Of a stretch of 21,441 bases of DNA, positions 1-18,917 are shown in pieces. This DNA comes from Deltaproteobacteria bacterium (GTDB lineage: Bacteria; Myxococcota; Polyangia; Haliangiales; Haliangiaceae). Under the pieces are notes generated by a model. That model did no database searches, was not told where the DNA came from, and saw only the letters and a program-made list of their open reading frames with translations. Numbering within the stretch: the first letter of the stretch is position 1; each line of letters opens with the position of its first letter. The position numbers were made by a program, and so were the translations under genes. The DNA lies in the NCBI GenBank assembly GCA_018262455.1, contig JAGSPR010000159.1, positions 1 through 21,441 of the forward strand, written 5' to 3'.

Positions 1-3000
1 GCTACAAGGCCCCGAAGACCTGGAAGCTCGCGTCGAAGACCGACGCGATCGGCGAGCACACCCTCCACCTCGACTTCCTTTCGGTGAATCCGGCGATGCC
101 GATGTCGGTGACCACGAGCGCGAGCGTCACCGACGTCAACCGCCAGACGTGGACCGCCTCGGCGATCTCGATCGTGCATCCATCGTCGGTCTACGTCGGC
201 CTGAAGACGAAGAAGCCGTTCGTCGAGAAGGGCACCCCATTCGACATCGACGTCATCGGCGTCGATCTCGACGGCAAGTTCGTCCCGAACGCCAAGATCG
301 AGGTCAAGACCGTGCGACTCGACTGGGAGTACAAGAAGGGCAAGTACACCCAGAAAGAGGTCGATCCACAGACGTGCTCGGTCGTCGCGGCCAAGGATCC
401 CGCGCCGTGCACGTTCGCCACCAAGGAAGGCGGGACGTACCAGGTGACGGCGATCGCGATGGACGCCAAGGGGCGGCCGAACCAGACCAAGCTGACGTTC
501 TGGGTGACCGGCGGCGATCAGCCCAAGGCGCGCGACGTCGCGCAGGAGGGTGTTCAGATCATCCCCGACAAGAAAGAGTACACGGCCGGCAACACCGCCG
601 AGCTCCTCGTCCAGGCGCCGTTCTATCCGGCCGAGGGCATCGTGAGCTGGCGGCGCAGTGGCATCGTCAAGACCGAGCGGATCTCGTTCACCGGGCCGAC
701 CAAGGTGATCACCGTGCCGATCAGCGAGGCGATGGTGCCGAACATGTTCGTGCAGGTCGATCTCGTCGGTGCAGCGGCACGGCTCGATGACAAGGGCGAT
801 CCCGATCCCAAGCTCCCGAAGCGGCCGGCCTATGCGGTCGGTCAGATCAACCTGCCGGTGCCGCCGAAGCAGCGCACGCTGGCCGTCACCGTGACGCCCA
901 ACGCTCCGAAGCTCGCGCCGGGTGAGCTCGCGAAGCTGCTGGTGACCGTGGTCGATGCGGCGGGCCGGCCTGTCCCGGACGCCGAGGCCGCGGTGATCGT
1001 CGTCGACGAGGCGATCCTCGCGCTCACCGGGTACCAGTTCGGCAGCCCGGTCGACACGTTCTACGGCCAGCGCGGGGCTGACGCGCGCGATGCCTACCAG
1101 CGGAGCTACGTGAAGCTCGCGAAGCCGGATAGCCACGCGCTGGCCGAGAACACCAAGAATGCCGCTCCGAGCGGTGGCGCGGGGGCGATCGATTTTGCGT
1201 CGGCGTCCGACGCGCCGCCGCCGCCGCCGGCCTCGGCGATGCCGGTCGCGACCCCCAAGCCAGGGCCGATGAGACGGGGCGAGGCGGCCGAGCAGGCGCG
1301 GACCGCGGGCGTGCTCGGCTCGATGGGGCAGCCACCGGCGCCGAACGCGCCGATCGCGATCCGTTCGAACTTCAACCCGCTGGCCGCGTTCGCGCCGGCG
1401 GTCAAGACCGATGCGGCTGGCCACGCGACGCTCGACGTCAAGCTGCCCGACAACCTGACACGCTATCGCATCGTCGCGATCGCGACCGCGGGCACGAAGC
1501 AGTTCGGCAAGGGCGAGAGCTCGGTGACCGCACGGCTGCCGCTGATGGTGCGGCCGAGCCCGCCGCGGTTCTTGAACTTCGGCGACACGTTCCAGCTACC
1601 GGTCGTGGTGCAGAATCAGACCGACGCGCCGATCACGGTGAAGCTCGCCGCGCGGACGACGAACGCGATGCTCACCGATGGGGCGGGCCGGCAGGTGACG
1701 GTCCCGGCCAACGATCGGGTGGAGGTGCAGTTCCCGGCGGCGGCGGAGCTGGCGGGGACGGCGCGGTTCCAGATCGTGGGGACGGCGGGCTCGTTCAGCG
1801 ACGCGGCGGAGGTGGCGCTGCCGGTGTGGACGCCGGCGACGACGGAGGCGTTCGCGACCTATGGCGTGATCGATGACGGAGCCGTCAAGCAGCCGGTGAG
1901 CTTGCCGGGCAAGGTGGTGATGCAGTTCGGGGGGCTGGAGGTGACGACGGCGTCGACGAATCTGCAGTCGCTGACGGACGCGATGCTGTACCTGGTGCGG
2001 TACCCGTACGAGTGCGCGGAGCAGCGGGCGTCGCGGGTGCTGGCGATCGCGGCGCTCAAGGACGTGCTGGGGGCGTTCAAGACGAAGGACCTGCCATCGC
2101 CGGCGGCGATGGAGAGCAGCGTGAAGAATGACATCGAGCGGCTGTCGCAGATGCAGAACTACGACGGCGGGTTCGCGTTCTGGGAGCGGGGGCGGCCGTC
2201 GGAGCCGTACCTGACGGTGTACGTGGCGAGCGCGCTGTGGCATGCGCAGCAGAAGGGGTTCGCGGTGCCGGCGGGGATCGTGGAGAAGGCGAAGCCGTAC
2301 CTGAAGAACATCGAGAGCTACTACCCGCACTACTACGGGCCGGAGATCCGGCGGACGATCTCGGCGTACGCGCTGTACACGCGGAAGCAGATGGGGGACG
2401 TGGACATCGGCAAGGGGCAGAGGCTGGTGCGGGAGGCGGGCGGGGTCGAGAAGCTGAACATGGAGGCGAACGCGTGGCTCTTGGGGACGTTCGCGGGGAA
2501 CGCGGGGGCGGTGACGGAGCGCAAGGCGATCGTGCGGCACGCGATGAACAAGGTGTCGGAGACGGCGGGGGCGGCGAACTTCACGACGAGCTACGGGGAC
2601 GGGGCCTATCTGCTGCTGGCGAGCGATCGCCGGGTCGACGCGGTGATGCTGGAGTCGCTGATCCAGGAGCAGAAGGATCTGGATCTGATCCCGAAGCTGG
2701 TGACGGGGCTCTTGGCGCACCGCAAGGCAGGGCGGTGGCTGAACACGCAGGAGAACACGTTCGCGCTGGTGGCGATGGATCTGTACTTCCAGACGTACGA
2801 GAAGGCGACGCCGGACTTCGTGGCGCGGGTGTGGCTGGGCGAGGACTACGCGGGGGACCACGCGTTCAAGGGGCGGACGACGGACTACTTCGCGATCCCG
2901 ATCGCGATGAAGGACGTGGCGGCGCACGACAAGCAGGCGCTGACGATCCAGAAGGATGGCAAGGGGCGGCTGTACTACCGGGTGGGGATGACGTACGCGC

Positions 3001-3500
3001 CGGCGAGCCTGAAACTGGAGGCGGCGGACTACGGGTTCGTGGTGGAGCGGAAGTACGAGGGGGTGGACGATGCGAAGGACGTGACGCGCGCGGCGGATGG
3101 GACGTGGCACATCAAGGCGGGGGCGCGGGTGCGGGTGAAGCTGGCGATGATCAACGAGAACCGGCGGTACCACGTGGCGCTGGTCGATCCGATGCCTGCG
3201 GGGCTCGAGGCGATGAACCCGGCGCTGGCGGTGACGGGGCCGATCCCGAGCGATCCGGCGGAGCAGCAGTCACGCGGGGCGTACTGGTGGTGGTACGGGC
3301 CGTGGTACGAGCACCAGAACATGCGGGACGAGCGGGTCGAGGCGTTCGCGTCGCTGCTGTGGGAGGGCGTCCACAAGTACGAGTACGTGGCGCGCGCGAC
3401 CACTCCCGGCAACTTCGTGGTACCGCCGCCGAAGGCCGAGGAGATGTACATGCCCGAGACGTTCGGGCGTGGCGCCTCGGACCGCGTGATCATCGAGTGA
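1..3500 (+). CDS. Bacterial alpha-2-macroglobulin family protein (5' end outside the window)
   Basis: The frame is open from the first complete codon (nt 3) to the stop at 3498-3500, so at least 1,165 residues are present and the N-terminus, with any signal peptide, lies upstream. A GTG at 84 is in frame but is probably internal. Order of parts: a macroglobulin-like beta domain (about nt 180-510), a bait-region-type domain (about 540-1050), a low-complexity Pro/Ala-rich stretch that could be the protease bait (about 1140-1350), the central A2M domain (about 1365-1640), the alpha-helical thioester domain, and a C-terminal beta domain. The thioester motif reads YPYECAEQRASR, with Cys at nt 2013-2015 and Gln at 2022-2024, so the residues needed for the internal thioester are intact. 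Family members trap proteases in the periplasm. No PbpC-type partner is visible here. Codon use changes sharply inside the gene (see findings). Confidence 0.93.
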   Translation, partial: YKAPKTWKLASKTDAIGEHTLHLDFLSVNPAMPMSVTTSASVTDVNRQTWTASAISIVHPSSVYVGLKTKKPFVEKGTPFDIDVIGVDLDGKFVPNAKIEVKTVRLDWEYKKGKYTQKEVDPQTCSVVAAKDPAPCTFATKEGGTYQVTAIAMDAKGRPNQTKLTFWVTGGDQPKARDVAQEGVQIIPDKKEYTAGNTAELLVQAPFYPAEGIVSWRRSGIVKTERISFTGPTKVITVPISEAMVPNMFVQVDLVGAAARLDDKGDPDPKLPKRPAYAVGQINLPVPPKQRTLAVTVTPNAPKLAPGELAKLLVTVVDAAGRPVPDAEAAVIVVDEAILALTGYQFGSPVDTFYGQRGADARDAYQRSYVKLAKPDSHALAENTKNAAPSGGAGAIDFASASDAPPPPPASAMPVATPKPGPMRRGEAAEQARTAGVLGSMGQPPAPNAPIAIRSNFNPLAAFAPAVKTDAAGHATLDVKLPDNLTRYRIVAIATAGTKQFGKGESSVTARLPLMVRPSPPRFLNFGDTFQLPVVVQNQTDAPITVKLAARTTNAMLTDGAGRQVTVPANDRVEVQFPAAAELAGTARFQIVGTAGSFSDAAEVALPVWTPATTEAFATYGVIDDGAVKQPVSLPGKVVMQFGGLEVTTASTNLQSLTDAMLYLVRYPYECAEQRASRVLAIAALKDVLGAFKTKDLPSPAAMESSVKNDIERLSQMQNYDGGFAFWERGRPSEPYLTVYVASALWHAQQKGFAVPAGIVEKAKPYLKNIESYYPHYYGPEIRRTISAYALYTRKQMGDVDIGKGQRLVREAGGVEKLNMEANAWLLGTFAGNAGAVTERKAIVRHAMNKVSETAGAANFTTSYGDGAYLLLASDRRVDAVMLESLIQEQKDLDLIPKLVTGLLAHRKAGRWLNTQENTFALVAMDLYFQTYEKATPDFVARVWLGEDYAGDHAFKGRTTDYFAIPIAMKDVAAHDKQALTIQKDGKGRLYYRVGMTYAPASLKLEAADYGFVVERKYEGVDDAKDVTRAADGTWHIKAGARVRVKLAMINENRRYHVALVDPMPAGLEAMNPALAVTGPIPSDPAEQQSRGAYWWWYGPWYEHQNMRDERVEAFASLLWEGVHKYEYVARATTPGNFVVPPPKAEEMYMPETFGRGASDRVIIE

Positions 3501-3553: not shown

Positions 3554-4093
3554 GTGCCGACGACGCCAGTCATCTTCATCGACGGTAATCCGCTGCGCGC
3601 CTCCGAGCTCGCGCAGATGGTCCCTTCGCTCGCGCTGATCGTCGAGGCGCTGCAGACCGGGTTCTCGACGAGCGCCCCGGAGCCTGGTCAGCGCGCACGC
3701 GACAAGGTGCTCGCGCATCACGTGGCGGGCGGGTGCTTCGCCGAGGCGGTCGATCTCACGACGATGGACGGCAAGAGCCTCCGGCTCGAGCTCGATACCG
3801 AGAACGAGAACCGGTTCTGCAAGTGGTGGCGTGAGACCCCGACCAAGATGCTGCTGGCGGTCGCGCTTCGGCGCGGCGCCGATGCCGAGATCGAGCTGTT
3901 CACCGCGGTCTGTGAGGGCCGGATCGCCGACAAGCCGGCTGGCCCGCATCTGCTCGGCTGGGATCGCCTGTTCGTCCCCGCGGGCGAGGACGCCACGCTT
4001 GCGCAGCTCACCGAGGCCGGCGAGATCGTCGAGTTCCGGCGCGCCGCCTACGAGCAAGTCGCCCGTGCATTCGGGGTCCCGGCGACGACCTGA
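3554..4093 (+). CDS. Divergent HAM1/RdgB/ITPA-like protein (non-canonical purine NTP pyrophosphatase fold)
   Basis: This 179-residue protein matches the normal length of the HAM1/ITPA family. The N-terminus VIFIDGNPLRASEL resembles the family's start (x-T-GN-x2-K-x2-E). The C-terminal third contains LGWDRLFVPAG (residues 134-144), the counterpart of the highly conserved FGWDP-F-P-G block, followed by TLAQL. Family members hydrolyse ITP, dITP and XTP to monophosphates to keep damaged purines out of nucleic acids. Departures from the family: the substrate-binding Ser-His-Arg near the C-terminus reads Glu-Phe-Arg, the Thr/Ser of the N-terminal T/S-GN motif is Asp, and the central EDS/EDT motif is not clear. 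Activity or specificity may therefore differ. The GTG start at 3554 has a GAGGAG Shine-Dalgarno about 12 nt upstream; the gene starts 53 nt after the macroglobulin gene. It converges on the gene ending at 4121. Confidence 0.68.
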   Translation: MPTTPVIFIDGNPLRASELAQMVPSLALIVEALQTGFSTSAPEPGQRARDKVLAHHVAGGCFAEAVDLTTMDGKSLRLELDTENENRFCKWWRETPTKMLLAVALRRGADAEIELFTAVCEGRIADKPAGPHLLGWDRLFVPAGEDATLAQLTEAGEIVEFRRAAYEQVARAFGVPATT

Positions 4094-8647: not shown

Positions 8648-8813
8648 CTGTACTGCCTCCCACGAATGCGGCCACCGCGCCGGGTAGCTGCCACCAACGG
8701 TTTGAACATCCGGCGCGCCTTGCCTCAACACAATTTTCGGACAAAGCGACTGCGGTGTGGAATTCTTCATATGTAGCGAAACATTGAGAACGACACGGGT
8801 AATGCGGACCACG
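8648..8813. promoter_or_regulatory. Divergent control region between the csp gene and the propeller lipoprotein gene
   Basis: About 166 bp separate the two divergent starts. The segment from roughly 8725 to 8800 is clearly more AT-rich than the flanking coding DNA (for example CAATTTT, ATTCTTCATATG and AACATTGAG), as expected for promoters. No -35/-10 pair was strong enough to name. The leader on the csp side is at least 80 nt if transcription starts within the AT-rich core, consistent with the long leaders of many csp genes. Confidence 0.4.
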
Positions 8814-10907
8814 ATGCCGGGCGCTCGAGTGCAGACTTTTCGTGACGGATCGCATCTTCGCCGCGTCGCTGGCACCGCCCTGCTGTGGATCGTCGCATGC
8901 GGCAACCCCACCCGCCTGGTGTCGAGGCCGCCCACGACCGATCGGTCGTCGCAACTCGATGCCGGGGTGGCCCCCGCGGGGCCAGCGAACGCGCTCGTCA
9001 GGACGATCCCGGGACACACCGCGACGGAGGCGCCCCACGGCGGCAACATCTCCGAGCTCGCCGTCACCGCAGATGGCGCCGCCGCGGTCAGCAGTGACGA
9101 GCTCGGCGGTGTTCGCCTGTGGCCGCGAATCGACGGAACCATCGAGCCACGCGCGGTCGATCTGCCGCGCCCGCAGCAGCTCGCGCTGGCCAGCCATCGA
9201 CGGGGCTTCCTCGTCGCGATGGTCGATGAAGGCGGTGGGCTCGTGCTCCAGGTGATCGATCACGATGGGCTGACCGTGCAGCGCGCCTCGCTGGGCGTCG
9301 ATCCCGGGTTCGCCGGCGTGGTGATGACGGACCGCGGGCCGATCGCGTGGAGGCGGGATCAGCGGATCGTTCGACTGTCGGCGGAGGGCGTGGTGGGCTC
9401 TGACCTCCCCGCCGAGGCGGGGCAACGCATCCTCACGGTCGCGGTGGCTGGCCCGCGCGCGGTGGCCGTGATCGAGTCGGGCGACACGTCGACCGGCAAC
9501 GCGACGCGGCGGGCACGCTGGCTCTTGATCGGCGACAAGCTTACGTGGGGCGCGTGGATCGATGCCGGCGACCACGTCAGCACCACGATCGCGCTGTCGC
9601 CCACGGGCAAGCGCCTCGCGAGCCTCGCCGGCGCCCAGCCCGGTGGCCCGATGCAAGCGATCGTCATCGACACCGCGACCGGCGCGTTGCTCGTCGCCGA
9701 ACCGGCCACGGGTGCGCTCGGCATCGGGATGCTCGACGATGATCACGTCGCCCTGGGCTCGAGCGGCGCGGTCAGCTGGATCGATCTGGCGAACGTTACG
9801 CGCAGGCCCCAGGCGACCGCGCCGGTGGAGCCACCCGCGGAGCGGGGGCTGCTCACGACCGGCGGCGGGCGGGCGATCACCGCGAGTAGCGGTGAGCTCG
9901 TGATCTCGACCCCGGCGAGCACCGAGTACCTCGGCTACGAGCTCGGGGCGCTGGCAGTCGCGGCGGCGGCGCCCCAAGGCCGCATGCTGGTCGGCCTCGG
10001 CGACTCGTTCGCGATGCTCGATTCCCAGCTCCGCACGACCGCCGCGCCGGACCTCGCGATCCCCGCGGCGTCCACGGTCGCCGCGCTGAAGTGGCTCGCG
10101 GGCGACGAGTGGCTGGTCGAGACGTCGCGCGTCAACGATGGGGTGACCTCGGTCGCGCTCGTCGATGTCGCCGGACACAAGTCCGTGGTGGTCCGCGGCG
10201 GCATGCCGATGGTCCAGCACCTGATGCACGATCGCTCGACTCAGCTCGTCACGTTGTCGCTTGGCGACACGCCCGAGGTCCTGCGCTACGAGCCCGGCAA
10301 GCTCCGGATCGATCGTCTCGCGGCACTTCCCAAGGCCGCCGGGTTCGAGCGCGCGGAGCTCGTGCCGGTCGCGCCCGCGCTCGCCGGCGGCACGCAGCTC
10401 GTCGTCGTCCAGATGCACGAGCGGCTCACGCTTCGCTGGGTCCGCGATCCGCGCGTGCTCGATCAGGGCACGGTGGTCACGATCGATGGCTCGCTCGCCG
10501 GGGTCGATGCAGCGGCCCACGTGTTCGTGTGGCAGAACGATCCGCAAGGCATGCTCGAGCTCGCGGTGTTCCTCGACGGCAAACGGATCGCCAAGCTGCC
10601 CACCGATGGCCCGACCGCGCTGTGGCCTGATCCGAGGGGCAACCGCGTCGTCCAGGTCTCGCAGCGCAGCATCGCGCTGGTTGGCTTCGACGGCACCCGC
10701 CGCTGGGCCCGGGCCCTCCAGGGCGTCAGCGAGGCGCTCTGGCTCGAGGACGGCACGCTCGGCATCGTCAGCGTGTCGGGCATCGCACGTCTCGATCCGC
10801 TCACCGGCGACGTGCTCGCTGCGAGGTGCGGCTGGAAGTTCGGGCTCTCGCGCAAGCAGCACCCGCTCATCGGCCGGTTCGAGCCGATCTGCACGCAGCT
10901 GCGCTGA
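8814..10907 (+). CDS. Outer-membrane lipoprotein with beta-propeller (WD40-like) repeats
   Basis: About 697 residues. A basic N-terminus and hydrophobic core end in a lipobox (LLWIVAC, Cys29 if the start is ATG 8814). The residues after Cys are Gly-Asn, with no Asp retention signal, so outer-membrane sorting is plausible. The mature part consists of repeating beta-strand units of the type ELAVTADGAAAVSSDELGGVRLW, LSPTGKRLASLAG and WPDPRGNRVVQV, typical of WD40/YVTN-like propellers. No enzymatic motif was seen. Such proteins usually serve as binding platforms. The frame continues upstream to a GTG at 8757; ATG 8802, ATG 8814 and GTG 8829 are all possible starts and none has a strong Shine-Dalgarno, so the exact start is uncertain. 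It ends 10 bp from the convergent VIT-domain gene. Confidence 0.72.
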   Translation: MPGARVQTFRDGSHLRRVAGTALLWIVACGNPTRLVSRPPTTDRSSQLDAGVAPAGPANALVRTIPGHTATEAPHGGNISELAVTADGAAAVSSDELGGVRLWPRIDGTIEPRAVDLPRPQQLALASHRRGFLVAMVDEGGGLVLQVIDHDGLTVQRASLGVDPGFAGVVMTDRGPIAWRRDQRIVRLSAEGVVGSDLPAEAGQRILTVAVAGPRAVAVIESGDTSTGNATRRARWLLIGDKLTWGAWIDAGDHVSTTIALSPTGKRLASLAGAQPGGPMQAIVIDTATGALLVAEPATGALGIGMLDDDHVALGSSGAVSWIDLANVTRRPQATAPVEPPAERGLLTTGGGRAITASSGELVISTPASTEYLGYELGALAVAAAAPQGRMLVGLGDSFAMLDSQLRTTAAPDLAIPAASTVAALKWLAGDEWLVETSRVNDGVTSVALVDVAGHKSVVVRGGMPMVQHLMHDRSTQLVTLSLGDTPEVLRYEPGKLRIDRLAALPKAAGFERAELVPVAPALAGGTQLVVVQMHERLTLRWVRDPRVLDQGTVVTIDGSLAGVDAAAHVFVWQNDPQGMLELAVFLDGKRIAKLPTDGPTALWPDPRGNRVVQVSQRSIALVGFDGTRRWARALQGVSEALWLEDGTLGIVSVSGIARLDPLTGDVLAARCGWKFGLSRKQHPLIGRFEPICTQLR

Positions 10908-10918
10908 CCCGCGCAGCT
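10897..10918. terminator. Hairpin at a tail-to-tail gene junction, possible bidirectional terminator
   Basis: AGCTGCGC (10897-10904) and GCGCAGCT (10911-10918) form a perfect 8-bp stem with a 6-nt loop that contains the stop codon of the plus-strand gene. A second, overlapping inverted pair GCGCTGA (10901-10907) / TCAGCGC (10918-10924) contains the stop codons of both convergent genes. The structure is GC-rich and symmetrical but has no U-tract, so terminator function in both directions is inferred. Confidence 0.5.
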
Positions 10919-13900
10919 CAGCGCGCGACGCCGAGCTCGACGGTGGCCTGGTTGGTCATGATCACATACGGGCGATCCTCGAACGTGATGCCGCCCTTCC
11001 CATCGAACCGCTGGATCTGCAACAGGCCCATGCCGTAGCCCATCGGGCCCTGCGAGTAGTAGTGCAGCGACAGCTTGTACGGGCCCGCGCTCGCGGTGCC
11101 AGGGATGGCGAAGCACTCCGGGCCATACCCGGTCGTCACGTCGGCGTAGAGCTCACCGCCCGACCGCAACACCGGGTGCGCGTACCACGCCTGGTTCCCG
11201 TTCGCGTCCTCGATGTGGAAGTCGACGTCGTTCGCGTCGGTCTCCCAGTAGGCGATGAACCGGGTCGACGGTAAGGTTGCGATCTCGAGCGACCGCTTCG
11301 CGAGCTCGCCGAGGATCTGTTCGGACTTGCCGCCGTGCGCGAGGTACGCGGCCGCGATCATCCCGGCATCCTCGGCGAACACGCGCTCGGCGCCGCGGAA
11401 CCGACCCGCGGGATACTTGTGGTCGATGGCCGCGAGGATCGCCGCGAACGCGCCCGCATGATCGGTGTCGCGCAGCAGGGCATAGGCGAGCAGGCGATGA
11501 CCGGTGGCGTGATCCGGTCGATCGGCGACCGCGCGGCGATAGCTGTCGATCGCGAGCTTGCGGGCCCCGAGTCGCTCCAGTCGCTCGCCGGCGAACCGTC
11601 GGAAGTCGGCGCGCGCCGGATACAGATCGATGATCGAGCCGTAGGTTCGCGCAGCGCCGGGGAGGTCGGCGCGTGCCTCGAGCGACTCGCCGAGCGCGAT
11701 CAGCGCGAGCACGTCGCCAGGAGCCTCGTCGCGCCACTTGCGAGCGACGGAATAGGCGTCGGCGAGACGGTGGGTGGCGATCGCCTGCATGACCAGGTCA
11801 AGCCGGCCGGAGAGTGCTGGCTTCGGATCGGCGGGCGGCTGCGGCCGCGGCGGCGGCGCCGGCGTGATCTGCACGGGCGCCACCGGAGCGGGCTCACTCG
11901 AGGGATCCGCTCGCCGGTACGTCATCGGGTAGCTGACCAGGACCTGTCCGGTAACCGGCCTCGGGAACTCGATGGCTCTGATGACAAGCGCGGCGCAGCT
12001 CGCGACGGCCGGATCGACGCCGGTCGCGGTCGCTCGCTCGACCGTGCCGTTGGCGTCGATCGTGAACTGGAGGGTCACCGTGCCTTCGAGGGTCGGCTTG
12101 CCGAGCAGCTCCTTCTCGTAGCAGTACTGGAGCTTCGCGACGTTGCGCTTGAGGTAGCGGCGGATCAGGGACTTGTCGAACGAGCCCTGCGTGGTGGGCG
12201 CACCGAGCGCAACGAGCGGAGCGTTGGTCCTGCGTCCGCGCATGACGCCCCAGCCGGAACCACCACCTCCGCTGCCGTAGCCCCTGCCGCTGCCGATCGT
12301 GTCGTAGCGTCCGCTCGCGCCCGGGCCGAACGCGGACCGCCCGAACCCGAATCCGGCGGGAGGATCGTCGCCGTTCAACCGGCCGTAGATCTGGTTGGCG
12401 TCCTCGATCCCGCTCGAGAAGTCGCCGGCGCCGGTCAGCGATGCGAGGCCATCCGAGCTCGACGTCGAGCTCGGGGCGTCGGGCCTTCCCATGGCGCCCT
12501 CGTCGAGCGCCATCGCGGTGCCGGGTCCGCCGCTCGCGTCCTCGTCGGGAGCGCGGGTCGGTGCTCGCGGCTCGCCGCTGGCGACAAACGTGCGGCGGGT
12601 CTGCTCGAGCCCGTGCGCGCCGACCACGAGGATGTCGGCGAGGGACGTGTGGTCGATGCCGTAGCGCGCGTAATCGGCCTCGCTCTCGAGCACGAGCATG
12701 GCGGTCTGGCTCGACACGACCCGCGCGGCGACCGAGCGCGTGCCGATCGTCTTGCGCAGCTGCCTGGCAAGGTCGGTGGTCGCGCCGGCGAGCTCGAGGC
12801 TGTGCTCGAGCTCCTCGATCTCGGCCTGTGCCACCGCGCGGTCGAGCAAGGCGGGCGCGGTCGCGACGAGCGAGACCGTGTTGCGCTCGCCGCCGACCAC
12901 GACCTCGAGCGTCTGCACCGGTCGCGTCATCCGGGCGTACACCGTCACCGGCGTCCCCGGCCGCGCGGACGCGAGCTTGCGTGGAAACACCCACGTCGCG
13001 CCCGGCACGTCGATCGCCACGTCGAGTCGCACGGCCTCGCCAAGCCCGGTCACGACCGCCGGCACGTCGCGATCGAGATCGAACACGTCTCCGGTGCGCG
13101 GCAGCGCTCGGACCAGGGCCGCGGCGAGCCGGTCATCGCGGATCCCACCGGCGAGCACGACGTCGAGCCGATCGATCGGCAGCTTGCCGACCGCGGCGAT
13201 GAGCTCGGGTGCAGGGCGACCGGCGGTGACCACACCGTCGGTGACCACCGCGACCCGACGATGCCTCGCCGCGCGCGCAAGCCAGTCGAGCGCTTGCCCG
13301 AGATCCGAGGCGCCCGCGGCCGAGCGCTCGACGAGTGCCGCGATCTGCGCGTCGCCGAAGTCGGCGGCCTGGCCCGCGAACACCAGGTGCGTCGCCTGAT
13401 CGAACGCGACGACCTGGAGCTCGAGTGCTTCGCCGTAGCGCGTCCGCATCCCGGTCACGAGCTCGCGCACGCGATCGAGGTAATCCGCGAAGCCGAGGGC
13501 GCGCGACGCACTGGTATCGACGAGCAGAGTGATCGCCTGCACCGGATCTGCGGTCGCGGGACCTGCGACCGTGAACGCACCGGCGACGAGGGTTCCGGAT
13601 GTGACGGCCACCGGCCCGGTCGTGGTGGCGACGAAGTCGCGGTCCGGCGCCCAGTTCCGCTCGTGGAGCTCGTGAAGCTCGCTCCCGACCTCGACGCGGA
13701 TGTCGATGCGCTCGGTCTTCGCGAGGCCTTGCAGCGGCAGCCTGTACTCCCCGGCGAGCTCCTGGCTGTAGGAGATCACGAGGTGCTTGTCGGCCTTCGG
13801 CTCGATCGGGAACACGCGCGCGGTGAACTGGTTGCCGGCCGCCTTCTCGAGCAGCGCGGGATCCTGCCGGCGATGCAGGAAGTCCTCGTACGCCCGTCGT

Positions 13901-14292
13901 GCGAGCACTTTCTCGACGACCTCGGCCTCCTGCCACGCGCCCTCGCGCTCCATCGCGAACCGCGAGACCGCAGCCCGTGCGGGCAGGGTGAGGGCGAACG
14001 TGCCTTCGCGTCGTCGCGGCTCGGGGTTATGAAAGTAGAGGTGCAGCTCGGTGAACGCGAGCGGGCCCTCGATCACGGCCTTCACATCGGCCCGCACGAG
14101 CAGCAGGCCGCTGCCGTCCGACGCGGTCAGCGTCCACGGCGGGGCGACGCGGGTGGGAGCGCGGTGTACAGCGGGTGGCGCGAGCGCTGGCGGCCTCGAG
14201 ATCGGCTCGGACGGCTGCGCGCATCCGGTCAGCCGGGCGGCGGACAGCAGGGCGATGGTCGGCAGGGCGAGCAGCAGGAGCTGGCGTGGCAT
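10918..14292 (-). CDS. Mosaic lipoprotein: VIT + vWA + AgmX/PglI-type C-terminal domain + TPR + DUF2135-like
   Basis: About 1,124 residues from ATG 14292, chosen over GTG 14307 because GGAG lies 6 nt upstream. A signal peptide ends in a lipobox (RLTGC, Cys24). Domains in order: a VIT domain (about 55-183, including RRAYEDFLHRRQDPALLE); a von Willebrand A domain with the intact metal-site motif DTSAS (Asp259, Ser261, Ser263); a Gly/Ser-rich linker (about 650-690); an AgmX/PglI-type TonB-like domain (about 700-790, RRYLKRNVAKLQYCYEKEL then GTVTLQFTIDANGTVERA); a Pro-rich linker; TPR-like helices (about 830-940); and a C-terminal beta domain like YfaP/DUF2135 (DVDFHIEDANGNQAWY, then DVTTGYGPE). 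VIT-vWA proteins usually mediate protein-protein contacts or adhesion at the surface. It is the last gene of the minus-strand operon, 86-101 nt after its neighbour. Confidence 0.88.
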   Translation of the reverse strand: MPRQLLLLALPTIALLSAARLTGCAQPSEPISRPPALAPPAVHRAPTRVAPPWTLTASDGSGLLLVRADVKAVIEGPLAFTELHLYFHNPEPRRREGTFALTLPARAAVSRFAMEREGAWQEAEVVEKVLARRAYEDFLHRRQDPALLEKAAGNQFTARVFPIEPKADKHLVISYSQELAGEYRLPLQGLAKTERIDIRVEVGSELHELHERNWAPDRDFVATTTGPVAVTSGTLVAGAFTVAGPATADPVQAITLLVDTSASRALGFADYLDRVRELVTGMRTRYGEALELQVVAFDQATHLVFAGQAADFGDAQIAALVERSAAGASDLGQALDWLARAARHRRVAVVTDGVVTAGRPAPELIAAVGKLPIDRLDVVLAGGIRDDRLAAALVRALPRTGDVFDLDRDVPAVVTGLGEAVRLDVAIDVPGATWVFPRKLASARPGTPVTVYARMTRPVQTLEVVVGGERNTVSLVATAPALLDRAVAQAEIEELEHSLELAGATTDLARQLRKTIGTRSVAARVVSSQTAMLVLESEADYARYGIDHTSLADILVVGAHGLEQTRRTFVASGEPRAPTRAPDEDASGGPGTAMALDEGAMGRPDAPSSTSSSDGLASLTGAGDFSSGIEDANQIYGRLNGDDPPAGFGFGRSAFGPGASGRYDTIGSGRGYGSGGGGSGWGVMRGRRTNAPLVALGAPTTQGSFDKSLIRRYLKRNVAKLQYCYEKELLGKPTLEGTVTLQFTIDANGTVERATATGVDPAVASCAALVIRAIEFPRPVTGQVLVSYPMTYRRADPSSEPAPVAPVQITPAPPPRPQPPADPKPALSGRLDLVMQAIATHRLADAYSVARKWRDEAPGDVLALIALGESLEARADLPGAARTYGSIIDLYPARADFRRFAGERLERLGARKLAIDSYRRAVADRPDHATGHRLLAYALLRDTDHAGAFAAILAAIDHKYPAGRFRGAERVFAEDAGMIAAAYLAHGGKSEQILGELAKRSLEIATLPSTRFIAYWETDANDVDFHIEDANGNQAWYAHPVLRSGGELYADVTTGYGPECFAIPGTASAGPYKLSLHYYSQGPMGYGMGLLQIQRFDGKGGITFEDRPYVIMTNQATVELGVAR

Positions 14293-14393
14293 CAGCGGCT
14301 CCGACACGCGAAGCCGCGCGCGAGTTCCACGGACCCGAGCGGCCGGCGCGTTGTCTCACCGCAGAGCGATCGGCCCGCGAGGGCTGGCCCCGA

Positions 14394-14858
14394 TCACCAC
14401 CGGCCGACGAGCAACGCGTTGGTCTGGAGCTGGAGCCGCGTGTCGTCGATGCCATCGAGCACCAGGTAGGCGGCGGTGTCGAGCGCGACGCTGAGCGGGC
14501 CGATGATCTTGGCGGTGATGCGGAGGCCGCCGCCCACGAGCGGGACGCGGGCATCGAGATCGCCGCCGAGCTCGGCATGGAGATCGAGGACGAGCAGGGG
14601 ACGGGCGGCCGCGCCTTCATAGACCACACCGGCCATCACGAGGCCGCGATGATGGTCGTCGAACGCGCGCCAGGCGACCAGGCCGCCGAACCTGCTGCGT
14701 GGCTTGACGTCGACGACGATGTCGAACCGCACGCGATCGCCACCGTCGCCGGTGAGCACGAGCGAGCTGCCCACGCCGGCGGTCCCGTGGATCCCTCGCT
14801 CGGCGTATGCGGGGGCGTCGGCCAGCGCGAGCACGGTGAGCAGGAGGAACGGCTTCAC
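14394..14858 (-). CDS. Small secreted beta-rich protein of unknown function
   Basis: 154 residues with a clear signal peptide (KPFLLLTVLALADAPAYA, likely cleavage AYA|E). The mature protein alternates hydrophobic and polar residues in strands (VRFDIVVDVKPRSRFGGLV, RPLLVLDLHAELGG, LQLQTNALLVGRW) and ends in an aromatic residue, as small outer-membrane barrels often do. No specific family was recognised. The GTG start at 14858 has a TGAGG Shine-Dalgarno that overlaps the stop codon of the export-gate gene 6 nt upstream. Translation of the two genes is therefore probably coupled, and a function linked to the export protein is plausible but not shown. Confidence 0.65.
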   Translation of the reverse strand: MKPFLLLTVLALADAPAYAERGIHGTAGVGSSLVLTGDGGDRVRFDIVVDVKPRSRFGGLVAWRAFDDHHRGLVMAGVVYEGAAARPLLVLDLHAELGGDLDARVPLVGGGLRITAKIIGPLSVALDTAAYLVLDGIDDTRLQLQTNALLVGRW

Positions 14859-14864
14859 GCGACC

Positions 14865-16715
14865 TCAGGTGATATCGATGCGTCCGGCGGTGCGCACGGA
14901 CGTGCCGGGCTGTAGCTCGTGCGCCGCGAGGACCGCGATCCCCGGCAGCTCGGGCTCGAGCAAGGTGCGGAGATGACGGCGGACATCGCCGCTCGCGAGG
15001 ATGACCGCGGGTCCGAGTCCGAGCTTGCCCTTCACCGCGGCAACGATGTCCTGGGCGATCGCCGGCTCGAGCGCGAGGATGGGGGTGCCATCGCGGCGGT
15101 CCACGGCACTGCGCACGGCATCCTCGATCATCGAATCGAGCGTGTAGACCGCGAGCTGGCCGCGGGGCGCCCACCGTGCGCTGATCTGTCGCCTGAGCTG
15201 ACCACGCAGGTGCTCGACGAGGGCAGGGACTTCGCGGGCCGTGTAGCCGCCGGCGGGGAGCGGGGCGAGCGCGATCGTCTCGAGCACCCCGGCGAGGTCC
15301 TGGATCGGCACCTCCTCGCGGACCAGGGCGCGCAGCACCTCGGTGAGCACGGGAAGGCTGACGAGCTTCGGCACGACCTCGCGAACGAGGATCGGAGCCT
15401 GCGTGGCGGCACGCTCGACAAGGCTGGCGACTCGGTCGACGCCGAGCAGCTCGGGGACGATCGTGGCCACCGCGGCGGGCAGCTTCGCGCGCAAGCCTTC
15501 GAGATCTCCGGCGGCGAGCCAGGCGAGCACGGTGGTGTCGAGCGCGAGCGCGGCCTCGCCAGCAGCGAGCGTCGGATCGACCGTGACAGCGAGCGGCGGC
15601 ACCGGGACGCCAGTCGTGGCTGTGGCCTGTGCCCGGAGCTCGCCGAGCGCGGCGTGGAGCTGCCCGAGCGGGATCAGCTGTCGCAGGGTGGGTGACAGGC
15701 GCAACGTGAGCCGCGGACCGCGCGCGGCGGCTGCCCCGGGCTCGTCGAGCACGTCGGCGACCCGCGGCTGGCTGCGCGCGGCGAGCCAGGCGAACACCGC
15801 GGCCACGAGGCCGAGCAGCAGGAACGGAGTGAGCGGCAGGCCGGGGACGAGCCCGAGCCCCACGAGCAACGCCGCGGCTGCTCCGAGCGCGCGTGGCTGA
15901 CCGCCGAGCTGAGCGCCGAGATCCTCACCGAGCGCGCGATCGCCCGTGCTCGCGACCCGGGTGACGAGCAACCCCGAGGCGACGGCGACGAGCAGCGACG
16001 GGATCTGAGCGACGAGGCCCTCGCCGATCGAGAGCAGCGAGTAGGTGCGCACGGCCTCTCCGGCGGACATCCCGCGCGTGCCGATGCCAACGACGAGTCC
16101 GCCGATCAGGTTGATGATCACGATGACGATCGCCGCGACCGCATCACCCTTGACGAAGCGCATGGCGCCATCCATCGCGCCGTAGAGCTGCGACTCGCGC
16201 TCGAGGTCGGCGCGCCGGCGGCGTGCGGTCTCGCCGTCGATCGTGCCGGTGCGCAGCTCGGCGTCGATCGCCATCTGCTTACCTGGCATCGCGTCGAGCG
16301 CGAACCGGGCCGCGACCTCGGCGACCCGCTCGGCCCCGCGGGCCACGACGACGAGCTGGACGACGGTGATCACCGCGAACACGACGATGCCGACCACGAG
16401 GCTGCCCGCGACCACCGACGAGCCGAACGCGGCGACGACGTCACCCGCATCGGCATCGGCGAGGATCAGCCGGGTGGCCGAGACTTCGAGCCCGACCCGA
16501 AACAGGGTGGTGACGACGAGCAGGGTCGGGAACGACGCGAATCCGAGCGGCCGCTGCGAGAACACGGCGGCCATGAGCAGGCACACCGCCATCGCGATGT
16601 TCAGGGTCAGCAGGACGTCGAGCAGAGGTCGCGGCAACGGCACGATCAGCATCGCGACCACCGCGATCACGAGCGCCGCGATCGCGAGCTCGGCTACGCC
16701 TCGCTGCTTCCTCAT
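14865..16715 (-). CDS. FlhA/SctV-family type III export-gate protein (FHIPEP family)
   Basis: 616 residues. FlhA (flagellum) and SctV (non-flagellar injectisome) form the nonameric ring beneath the export channel and bind chaperone-substrate complexes. The N-terminal half has the typical multi-helix membrane domain (LLDVLLTLNIAMAVCLLMAA, LFRVGLEVSATRLIL, GSLVVGIVVFAVITVVQ). It is followed by the best conserved block of the family, RVAEVAARFALDAMPGKQMA and then YGAMDGAMRFVKGDA. The C-terminal cytoplasmic domain (about 330-616) is present but short: the whole protein is roughly 70 residues below the usual ~690. Flagellar versus non-flagellar type cannot be settled from this sequence alone. No other export-apparatus gene lies in the window. 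The ATG at 16715 follows the sigma-factor stop by 15 nt, so both genes are probably in one operon. Confidence 0.9.
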   Translation of the reverse strand: MRKQRGVAELAIAALVIAVVAMLIVPLPRPLLDVLLTLNIAMAVCLLMAAVFSQRPLGFASFPTLLVVTTLFRVGLEVSATRLILADADAGDVVAAFGSSVVAGSLVVGIVVFAVITVVQLVVVARGAERVAEVAARFALDAMPGKQMAIDAELRTGTIDGETARRRRADLERESQLYGAMDGAMRFVKGDAVAAIVIVIINLIGGLVVGIGTRGMSAGEAVRTYSLLSIGEGLVAQIPSLLVAVASGLLVTRVASTGDRALGEDLGAQLGGQPRALGAAAALLVGLGLVPGLPLTPFLLLGLVAAVFAWLAARSQPRVADVLDEPGAAAARGPRLTLRLSPTLRQLIPLGQLHAALGELRAQATATTGVPVPPLAVTVDPTLAAGEAALALDTTVLAWLAAGDLEGLRAKLPAAVATIVPELLGVDRVASLVERAATQAPILVREVVPKLVSLPVLTEVLRALVREEVPIQDLAGVLETIALAPLPAGGYTAREVPALVEHLRGQLRRQISARWAPRGQLAVYTLDSMIEDAVRSAVDRRDGTPILALEPAIAQDIVAAVKGKLGLGPAVILASGDVRRHLRTLLEPELPGIAVLAAHELQPGTSVRTAGRIDIT

Positions 16716-16730
16716 GTCATCGTCTCATCG

Positions 16731-17723
16731 TCACGAGGGCTCGACCTCTTCGAGCTCGCTCGGATCGAGCTCGATCGCGTCGCTGTCGACGTTGTCGCTC
16801 GGCCCGCCGAGGTGGCGGATCAGCGACAGGTGGATCTGGCTGCGGATCATCCGCAATACGCTGTCCAGCTCGTCGGCGGGCAGCTTGAGCCGGCCGCGCA
16901 GGGTCTCGAGCGTCGAGCGCACCAGCAACTCCTTGGCCTTCTCGAGCCAGCGAAACGCGGTGACGCGGTGGACCCGGTAGATCGCGCCGATCTCATCGAT
17001 GTTGAGGCCGTCGACGTGGTGGTAACGCAGCAACGTCTGCTCGCGCGCGCCGAGTTGCTGGAGGGCATCTCCGAACGCGGCCTTGAACTGCTCCGAGTAC
17101 GTGCGCTTCATGTACTCGACCTCGGGATCGTCCTGCGCGATCGCGTGCTGCGCGATCAGGTGATCGTCGTCCACCAGGATCTCGCGCTTGCCCTTGCGGA
17201 GGTCGTTGAGGCAGGTCCGGACGGCGACCGAGCGGACCCACCGCCGGAGGTCGCCGCGCCCGCCGTACTCCGTGATCTTCCCAGCGCTCGTCGGGGTCCC
17301 GGCCGTGCCGCCGCCGACGAACAGCCGCTGGCGCACCAGCTGCTTGATGTCGGACAGCCGGGGCGGGCCGATCCGCATCCGCGCGAGCGCGATGTCGACC
17401 TCGCGCATGTAGTCGCGATCGAACGCGTTGATCGCGTGAGGGAGTTGCTTGGCGCAGCCGCAGGCGAGGTAAAGGTCGGCCGGGCGCAGCCCGTCGAGCG
17501 CCGCCTCGGCGAGCTCGATCGTGGCCTGGCGGCCGATGAACGACACGACATCCACCGCATCGACGGCGAGCTCGGGCCACGCCGCGCGGCCTTCGGCGAC
17601 GATCGTCCAGAGCCGCCGGTCGAGGTCGGCGATCGCCTCGAGAGTGGGCCTGACCGCCGCGGGCGCGGCATCGAGGAACGGACGCACCAGGCTCGGCGTG
17701 GTCACCGGGACGGAGTAGGCCAC
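16731..17723 (-). CDS. Sigma-70-family RNA polymerase sigma factor, Myxococcales-type
   Basis: About 330 residues from GTG 17723 (GTG 17705 is an alternative; neither has a good Shine-Dalgarno). The segment RWVRSVAVRTCLNDLRKGKR matches sigma region 2.4-like sequence. QLGAREQTLLRYHHVDGLNI followed by DEIGAIYRVHRVTAFRWLEK is a region-4 helix-turn-helix. The N-terminal ~130 residues (DLYLACGCAKQLPHAINAFD, then YMREVDIALARM) differ from ordinary ECF factors and match my memory of the sigma family described only from Myxococcales (TIGR03001, 'gmx1'). No anti-sigma factor is adjacent. As the first gene of the operon it may control the export-gate and lipoprotein genes behind it. It is transcribed divergently from the ClpX-like gene. 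Confidence 0.82.
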   Translation of the reverse strand: MAYSVPVTTPSLVRPFLDAAPAAVRPTLEAIADLDRRLWTIVAEGRAAWPELAVDAVDVVSFIGRQATIELAEAALDGLRPADLYLACGCAKQLPHAINAFDRDYMREVDIALARMRIGPPRLSDIKQLVRQRLFVGGGTAGTPTSAGKITEYGGRGDLRRWVRSVAVRTCLNDLRKGKREILVDDDHLIAQHAIAQDDPEVEYMKRTYSEQFKAAFGDALQQLGAREQTLLRYHHVDGLNIDEIGAIYRVHRVTAFRWLEKAKELLVRSTLETLRGRLKLPADELDSVLRMIRSQIHLSLIRHLGGPSDNVDSDAIELDPSELEEVEPS

Positions 17724-17735
17724 TGGAGGAGGCGA

Positions 17736-17765
17736 TTGGTCAAACGATCTCCCCTGCGCTACGCT
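17736..17765 (+). promoter_or_regulatory. Candidate promoter of the ClpX-like gene in the 54-bp divergent gap
   Basis: TTGGTC (17736-17741) and TACGCT (17760-17765) are separated by 18 nt, the same spacing and a similar -10 as at lexA. Transcription would begin only a few bases before the ATG at 17778, which would explain the missing Shine-Dalgarno. Each hexamer matches consensus at only 3 of 6 positions, so this is tentative. The whole gap between the sigma and ClpX-like starts is 17724-17777, so the two promoters must overlap or abut. Confidence 0.33.
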
Positions 17766-17777
17766 CGGGATCGTCGG

Positions 17778-18917
<1,140 letters not shown>

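Follow-up and report, generated by a model that had tools for sequence, protein, structure and literature searches.

The window analysed here is a 21,441-nucleotide stretch (contig JAGSPR010000159.1, assembly GCA_018262455.1) from a Deltaproteobacteria bacterium placed in the class Polyangia, order Haliangiales, by its GTDB lineage. It contains sctV, a gene for a short SctV-type export gate of the kind used in type III secretion systems (T3SS). The evidence on anatomy and on distribution in relatives is strong, and by it the window probably holds the gate operon of a Myxococcota non-flagellar T3SS variant that is dispersed and stripped of hierarchy control.

An earlier, sequence-only reading had described a sigma factor, sctV, a secreted protein and a VIT lipoprotein in one apparent operon. 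Four minus-strand genes are indeed present (Table 1), separated by 15 nt (sigma factor to sctV), 6 nt (sctV to the small gene) and 86 nt (small gene to the VIT gene), the last replacing a previous estimate of about 100 nt. The reported overlap of a Shine-Dalgarno motif with the preceding stop codon was likewise found, at the sctV end.

Table 1. Features of the gate locus (window coordinates)
Feature	Position	Strand	Remarks
TIGR03001 (Myxococcales family 1) ECF-like sigma factor, 330 aa	16731..17723	-	First gene of the conserved unit
Short SctV-type export gate (sctV), 616 aa	14865..16715	-	FHIPEP PF00771, 575.3 bits
FHIPEP loop, SctV residues 129-151	16263..16331	-	From the SctV alignment
Approximate junction without subdomain D2, residues ~402-405	15501..15512	-	D2 is ~59 aa in FlhA
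Shine-Dalgarno-like GAGG before the small gene	14863..14866	-	Overlaps the sctV stop TGA (14865-14867)
Small exported protein, 154 aa, predicted 8-stranded outer-membrane-type beta-barrel, C-terminal RW	14394..14858	-	
VIT + AgmX/PglI C-terminal + TPR protein, 1129 aa	10918..14307	-	Neighbour here, outside the conserved unit
ClpX-like ATPase gene, divergent	17778..18917	+	236.9 bits, below the cut-off of 359; synteny anchor, unassigned to the system

The gate gene and its conserved neighbours

The sigma factor matched the NCBIfam model TIGR03001 (Sig-70_gmx1) with 208.3 bits, above the cut-off of 154.6. For the gate, the nearest NCBIfam model was hrcV/SctV, with 575.6 bits against a cut-off of 692.25. 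A simple promoter and terminator scan of positions 10700-18000 returned 0 of each, with 0.2 and 1.1 expected from shuffled sequence, and is thus uninformative on transcript ends; a tRNA scan found none.

We compared gene order at 15 orthologous loci from Kofleriaceae-family genomes (genomes and loci are given by G and L numbers). The small gene, called the barrel gene below, directly follows sctV in 14 of the 15; at the exception, G016, the next open reading frame (ORF) runs off the contig end and gave no match. Of the 14 loci in which the upstream side of sctV can be seen, 12 carry a sigma gene there, no more than 136 nt away in 11 and about 1.2 kb away in G028. Four-nucleotide overlaps at several junctions suggest translational coupling. 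The conserved unit in Kofleriaceae is therefore sigma factor, short SctV gate and barrel protein, in an arrangement beyond chance. Loci L140 and L141 (G030 and G031) keep gate and barrel with no sigma factor upstream, a possible regulator change within the family.

Flanking genes are often common to the relatives: the ClpX-like ATPase gene, HisG and a putative MurA-like gene (read by eye). The ClpX-like gene adjoins the unit in relatives that have the sigma gene and adjoins sctV in L180. This sharing of flanks suggests that the locus is probably old and vertically inherited. Ratios of nonsynonymous to synonymous substitution rates (dN/dS) against four genomes, from a crude Nei-Gojobori estimate, were about 0.25-0.30 for sctV, 0.11-0.18 for the sigma gene and 0.39-0.51 for the barrel gene, values that speak for purifying selection.

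Nine T3SS-component profiles built here detected no further T3SS part within the window. Among 61 SctV/FlhA loci scanned besides the window (two of them twice), export neighbours appeared only at L251 and L256, both FlhA-type. As a control, the profiles were run on SctV loci of other groups, each 8 kb or longer: of 67, 47 yielded a neighbouring part and 23 three or more, so the reach of the profiles is limited for distant families. Within that limited reach, the earlier description of sctV as an orphan stands: no other export gene was found in the window or in the surroundings examined in its relatives, apart from those at the two FlhA-type loci.

The small exported protein matched no Pfam or NCBIfam family. 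An AlphaFold2 model from a 33-row alignment (mean predicted local distance difference test score, pLDDT, 88.6; predicted template modelling score, pTM, 0.76) consists of a signal helix and eight strands, and the protein is predicted to be an 8-stranded outer-membrane-type beta-barrel. Its best Foldseek match was NspA (1p4t; E 2.9e-4, probability 1.00, template modelling score 0.54), followed by OmpA, Ail, OmpX and OmpW. Like NspA, OmpX, Ail and OmpW it has eight strands, a signal peptide and a C-terminal aromatic residue; unlike them its gene adjoins an export gate, and sequence identity is only 8-15% in the ten best structural matches. Within the family, the C-terminal R and W are each present in at least 90% of rows, and several charged residues are invariant. 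Known 8-stranded barrels are narrow, which disfavours the protein as an exit pore.

Lineage and architecture of the gate

We placed the gate with two SctV/FlhA trees, neither of which includes a Myxococcus xanthus row. In the first (93 rows, LG+G4), the flagellar FlhA proteins of the same genomes fell apart from it with a support of 100, and the 17 Kofleriaceae rows, including the window, formed one clade with a support of 100; the Polyangia rows were not recovered as a single clade. In the second, which used a mixture model and an alignment without the D2 columns and without five long-branch rows (L262, L263, L264, L196 and L266), 49 Polyangia rows formed one clade among the non-flagellar rows (Shimodaira-Hasegawa-like approximate likelihood ratio support 96), joining the injectisome rows in an unresolved fork, and flagellar FlhA was again a separate clade with a support of 100. 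By these trees the gate is of the non-flagellar SctV type and of a Myxococcota lineage, as the sequence-only reading had supposed. Its placement agrees with the early-branching 'Myxo' lineage that Abby and Rocha described, in trees without an M. xanthus row. We rejected a flagellar FlhA identity on the separate clade in both trees and the non-flagellar locus, which set the gate apart from the flagellar FlhA/FlhB/FliPQR apparatus. At least 120 relatives of the gate were found, at 72-85% identity among the matches listed.

The gate has lost cytoplasmic subdomain D2. In all 17 Kofleriaceae rows only 3-12 residues of it are left, compared with 56-61 in the 24 rows from injectisomes and 59 in each of the 12 flagellar FlhA rows; 21 of 23 other orphan rows have fewer than 20. 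Unlike canonical injectisome SctV, the gate thus combines a score below the hrcV/SctV cut-off with the absence of D2. Fourteen of 17 further Polyangia rows keep D2. Apart from two FlhA-type rows, these 14 have no detected sct neighbours either, which suggests that gene scattering probably preceded D2 loss. Rows with fewer than 30 residues in the block were counted as lacking D2, so that L168 (26 residues) lacks it and L199 (44 residues) has it. On the D2-free tree its state then changes at least 6 times, 5 of them forced by well-supported branches. This points to losses in parallel, or to losses and regains. D2 loss rests on the sequence alignment because structural comparison gave a root-mean-square deviation of 10-12 Å for FlhA/SctV rows, put down to moving subdomains. 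In a structure model of the gate (mean pLDDT 70.6, pTM 0.37) the membrane part was poor, so only the cytoplasmic domain was used. The missing block covers what we take to be the positions of FlhA Asp-456 and Thr-490. A chaperone-binding dimple between D1 and D2, with Phe-459 in it, is described in the passages available from PMC9431611.

A second control element is missing from most of the SctU proteins examined in relatives. The NPTH motif, the site of autocleavage, is absent from 6 of 7 non-flagellar SctU (G001, G003, G030, G034, G124 and G005) and kept in that of G006; it is also kept in the flagellar FlhB of G001, the one same-genome FlhB examined. The inner-membrane ring protein SctJ is probably shortened in Kofleriaceae, as judged from weak candidates: against a profile built on five Polyangia SctJ sequences, they align with the second half alone. 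Among shortened SctJ-like lipoproteins, those at L284:1405-1884, L285:1106-1612 and L288:1495-2064 have the second ring domain and a membrane helix and share a neighbour gene. For the one non-Kofleriaceae SctJ tested, the best model was TIGR02544.

Most of the export engine is retained. The FHIPEP loop is conserved in the SctV alignment, R73, R82, D182, D191 and Q237 are identical across all 17 Kofleriaceae and all 12 flagellar rows, and Walker A is intact in all six SctN ATPases viewed.

Export parts elsewhere in the genomes of relatives

Export parts beyond the window are known from relatives' genomes only. The Kofleriaceae-family set comprised 30 genomes (the family of G001), 24 with the orphan gate, that of G032 being a fragment of unsure type. 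Among these 24, non-flagellar SctR was found in 18, SctU in 16, one or the other in 21 and SctN in 20, counting a fragment in G013 that lies at a contig end and scored below the cut-off. In the six genomes without the gate, non-flagellar SctR or SctU was found in 0/6 and SctN in 0/6. Non-flagellar SpoA/SctQ was present in 11 of 14 Kofleriaceae genomes tested (a partial match in G019), at its own locus where viewed.

The set recurs outside the family. From 144 genomes of the class scored for the gate, we picked 16 non-Kofleriaceae genomes with long short-gate matches among the matches listed; G083, G127, G158 and G111 were among those left out. Non-flagellar SctR and SctN over the cut-off were found in 16/16 each, SctJ in 15/16 and SpoA/SctQ in 14/16. 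SctS and SctT were seen only in Kofleriaceae and G124 loci.

These parts are scattered. In G139, SctV lies at C1:2.63 Mb, SctQ at C1:0.88 Mb, SctJ at C1:2.87 Mb, SctR at C2:0.40 Mb and SctN at C2:0.73 Mb. In G139, G102 and G145, which have long contigs, the distances between parts exceed 100 kb or the parts fall on different contigs; the dispersal is thus no product of fragmented assembly. SctR stands with SctS, SctT and SctU beside a putative priA (read by eye) in G001, G030, G034 and G124; it is accompanied only by FliO in G139, G102 and G145, and SctU is alone in G006. Of seven complete SctR loci viewed, six have a FliO-like gene next to SctR; it precedes SctR in G001, G034 and G124 and was not called in G030.

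SctN has its own conserved locus (L130:8779-11006, L134:8039-14601). There, a conserved gene of about 250 aa, with no family over the cut-off, stands directly or one gene before SctN and is an SctL candidate. SctN carries an Ala/Glu/Arg-rich N-terminal extension of 70-75 residues and is followed by a protein of about 1040 aa with AAA and response-regulator-type DNA-binding parts. A putative PspA-like gene (read by eye) adjoins an orphan SctJ gene twice and an orphan SctU gene once, each time in a different genome (L222:2184-2840, L224:2292-2951, L098:12830-13552); from these neighbours, membrane-stress genes may cluster with the scattered export genes.

At least one of the 20 control loci in which no neighbour had been detected, L074 of Lujinxingia (Bradymonadia by name), looks like a further orphan by its ORFs. 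Its SctV (L074:9986-12076) keeps D2 and shows no sct neighbour, and a zinc-ribbon protein nearby (L074:13079-13999) resembles by eye proteins near Kofleriaceae SctQ (L229:14063-15854). Going by this locus, dispersal may extend beyond Polyangia.

The rest of the window includes a bacterial alpha-2-macroglobulin gene (84-3500; Pfam A2M, bMG10) and a Ham1-type protein (3554-4093) whose Pfam match spans only the profile end (115-183 of 186), so that it may be shortened or diverged. A 716-aa plus-strand ORF (8757-10907) without a Pfam or NCBIfam family has relatives near sctV in many Kofleriaceae, with two tandem copies in L002 and L146. The VIT protein (10918-14307) is a mosaic, with a VIT domain (Pfam, 73.4 bits), an AgmX/PglI C-terminal match (NF033768, 69.7 bits, cut-off 40) and a weak TPR match; the GltG gliding-motility model matches part of it, far below the cut-off.

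Explanations, known systems and significance

We consider it likely that the window gate is a dispersed part of a non-flagellar, Myxococcota-type export apparatus in the class Polyangia. In Kofleriaceae, Fisher tests without G032 gave 5.9e-5 for SctR/U and 1.8e-4 for SctN in association with the gate. Several points weigh against this reading, beginning with the tests themselves, which ignore kinship and the incompleteness of metagenome-assembled genomes and depend on a flagellar or non-flagellar assignment made from contig neighbours and score. The evidence for the other export parts comes from relatives, and the orphan status rests on the limited reach of the profiles, which found a neighbour in 47/67 ordinary SctV loci. 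Some gate-bearing Kofleriaceae-family genomes had no detected SctR/U (G010, G011 and G032) or SctN (G010, G028, G029 and G032), SctQ was not detected in G014, G020 and G021 among the 14 Kofleriaceae tested, and no SctU was found in G004, whose locus L004 has the orphan gate. Profile searches of the 16 non-Kofleriaceae genomes covered SctR, SctN, SctQ and SctJ. The Kofleriaceae SctJ candidates are weak, with E values from 1e-9 to 4e-3 and hits in 10 of 21 genomes, and G030 and G031 have no sigma gene upstream of sctV. Finally, an acidic residue stands at SctV position 232 in all 12 flagellar rows and in 23 of the 24 from injectisomes, whereas only 12 of 17 Kofleriaceae rows have one and the other 5 have Ala or Gly.

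These last residues would suit the strongest rival, a lone SctV that has parted from any export apparatus and taken on another membrane role, such as ion conduction or scaffolding. So would an orphan gene with sct or fli neighbours only at FlhA-type L251 and L256 of 61 loci, and the loss of the chaperone-docking D2. However, the gate co-occurs with non-flagellar SctR/U and SctN, neither of which was found in the six gate-less genomes, and the dispersed set recurs in 16 other genomes. We regard this rival as improbable, and the earlier idea of a lone repurposed gate gave way once relatives proved to encode other export-apparatus parts at separate genome places.

The same reading had proposed a four-gene system with its own regulator and envelope partners. 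The sigma factor and one envelope protein bear this out; the VIT lipoprotein does not, as it had no match to any called ORF at the 15 orthologous loci (two of which have less than 0.5 kb of downstream sequence). The VIT gene is thus unlinked in the relatives compared, and we rejected the four-gene system. That all four genes form an envelope operon with a joint function is very doubtful despite their common strand, the 86-nt gap and a lipobox-like LTGC in the VIT protein (read by eye).

The remnant idea, also raised earlier, in which a former injectisome or flagellum is decaying, would explain the missing D2 and NPTH, the shortened SctJ and the scattered genes. We rejected it on the sctV dN/dS, and the conserved FHIPEP loop, the intact Walker A of SctN and retention of the gate in many Polyangia, with its at least 120 relatives, leave it a very small chance. 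Least plausible is an alternative FlhA serving the flagellar apparatus: flagellar genes also occur in many Kofleriaceae, but the short SctV falls in a clade separate from FlhA and is found in genomes with a single gate-profile match and no flagellar-type FliF, such as G102, G139 and G145.

Returning to a dispersed export apparatus, its parts, made from separate loci, would assemble together. SctV would form an inner-membrane and cytoplasmic ring around an SctRST-SctU gate, inside a reduced SctJ ring, while the separate SctN ATPase and an SctQ platform would deliver substrates to a gate energised as in other T3SS. The apparatus would push substrates across the inner membrane. Lacking D2 and NPTH, the gate would export without the usual chaperone docking or substrate switch, and the machine is probably an unswitched exporter. 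With neither D2 docking nor SctU switching, its substrates would not have to be handed over in order, as would fit a presumably needleless machine. The sigma factor would control how much SctV and barrel protein is made, and the latter would serve as an outer-membrane partner or sensor or, less likely, as an exit route. The likely output would be periplasmic or surface export.

The closest known systems are T3SS* of M. xanthus (MXAN_2434-2464) and the 'Myxo' non-flagellar T3SS of Abby and Rocha 2012, with which the set seen in relatives shares a non-flagellar gate, ATPase, SctQ and FliO, an SctJ for which Kofleriaceae offer weak candidates, and an early-branching Myxococcota lineage. Passages in PMC3459982, PMC10433427 and PMC12403147 describe these systems without secretin and needle, and those in PMC3459982 describe the genes as clustered, in Cystobacterineae. 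In contrast, the Polyangia genes occupy several separate loci instead of one conserved cluster, most orphan SctV rows have no D2 and the lineage's SctU no NPTH, in a comparison that included no M. xanthus SctV. FliO is reported to be frequent in Myxococcota non-flagellar T3SS, including those of M. xanthus (PMC12403147, in part), and its position beside SctR in relatives agrees with that report. The scattered chlamydial injectisome differs: the one chlamydial row (L037) keeps D2 and falls among injectisome rows.

M. xanthus T3SS* works with the Kil Tad pilus in prey lysis, according to the text available from PMC12075869, and by that analogy alone the Polyangia machine might have a role in prey contact. 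In the available part of a survey that had a single Haliangiales genome (PMC10196010), a Tad-like pilus is reported absent from Haliangiales and Nannocystales, so the Polyangia machine may have a different partner. The same part places myxobacterial T3SS mainly in nine Myxococcales genomes of 17 surveyed, and passages of PMC11821767 report half or more of the M. xanthus T3SS homologues in a Myxococcaceae bin. Two statements weigh against novelty: a review calls T3SS* conserved within myxobacteria (PMC10433427, in part), and a needleless T3SS* is predicted for bradymonabacteria (PMC11509652, in part). In the open PMC literature, with subscription papers and supplements outside its scope, we found no report of a dispersed T3SS in Polyangia.

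Scans that rely on gene clusters can overlook a machine with scattered, diverged genes. If the present one works, it would show which parts of the export core are kept (the FHIPEP loop, most charged membrane residues and Walker A) as opposed to hierarchy control (D2 and NPTH). It is relevant to whether the injectisome arose after a needleless T3SS, and adds to M. xanthus T3SS* a second system open to testing. More tentatively, a class-wide T3SS core could exist in Polyangia, unclustered, free of chaperone dock and switch, with D2 lost repeatedly in parallel, that sends few substrates to the periplasm or outer membrane with a dedicated barrel. If such a class-wide stripped core is real, it would offer a living test of T3SS core function without needle or secretin.

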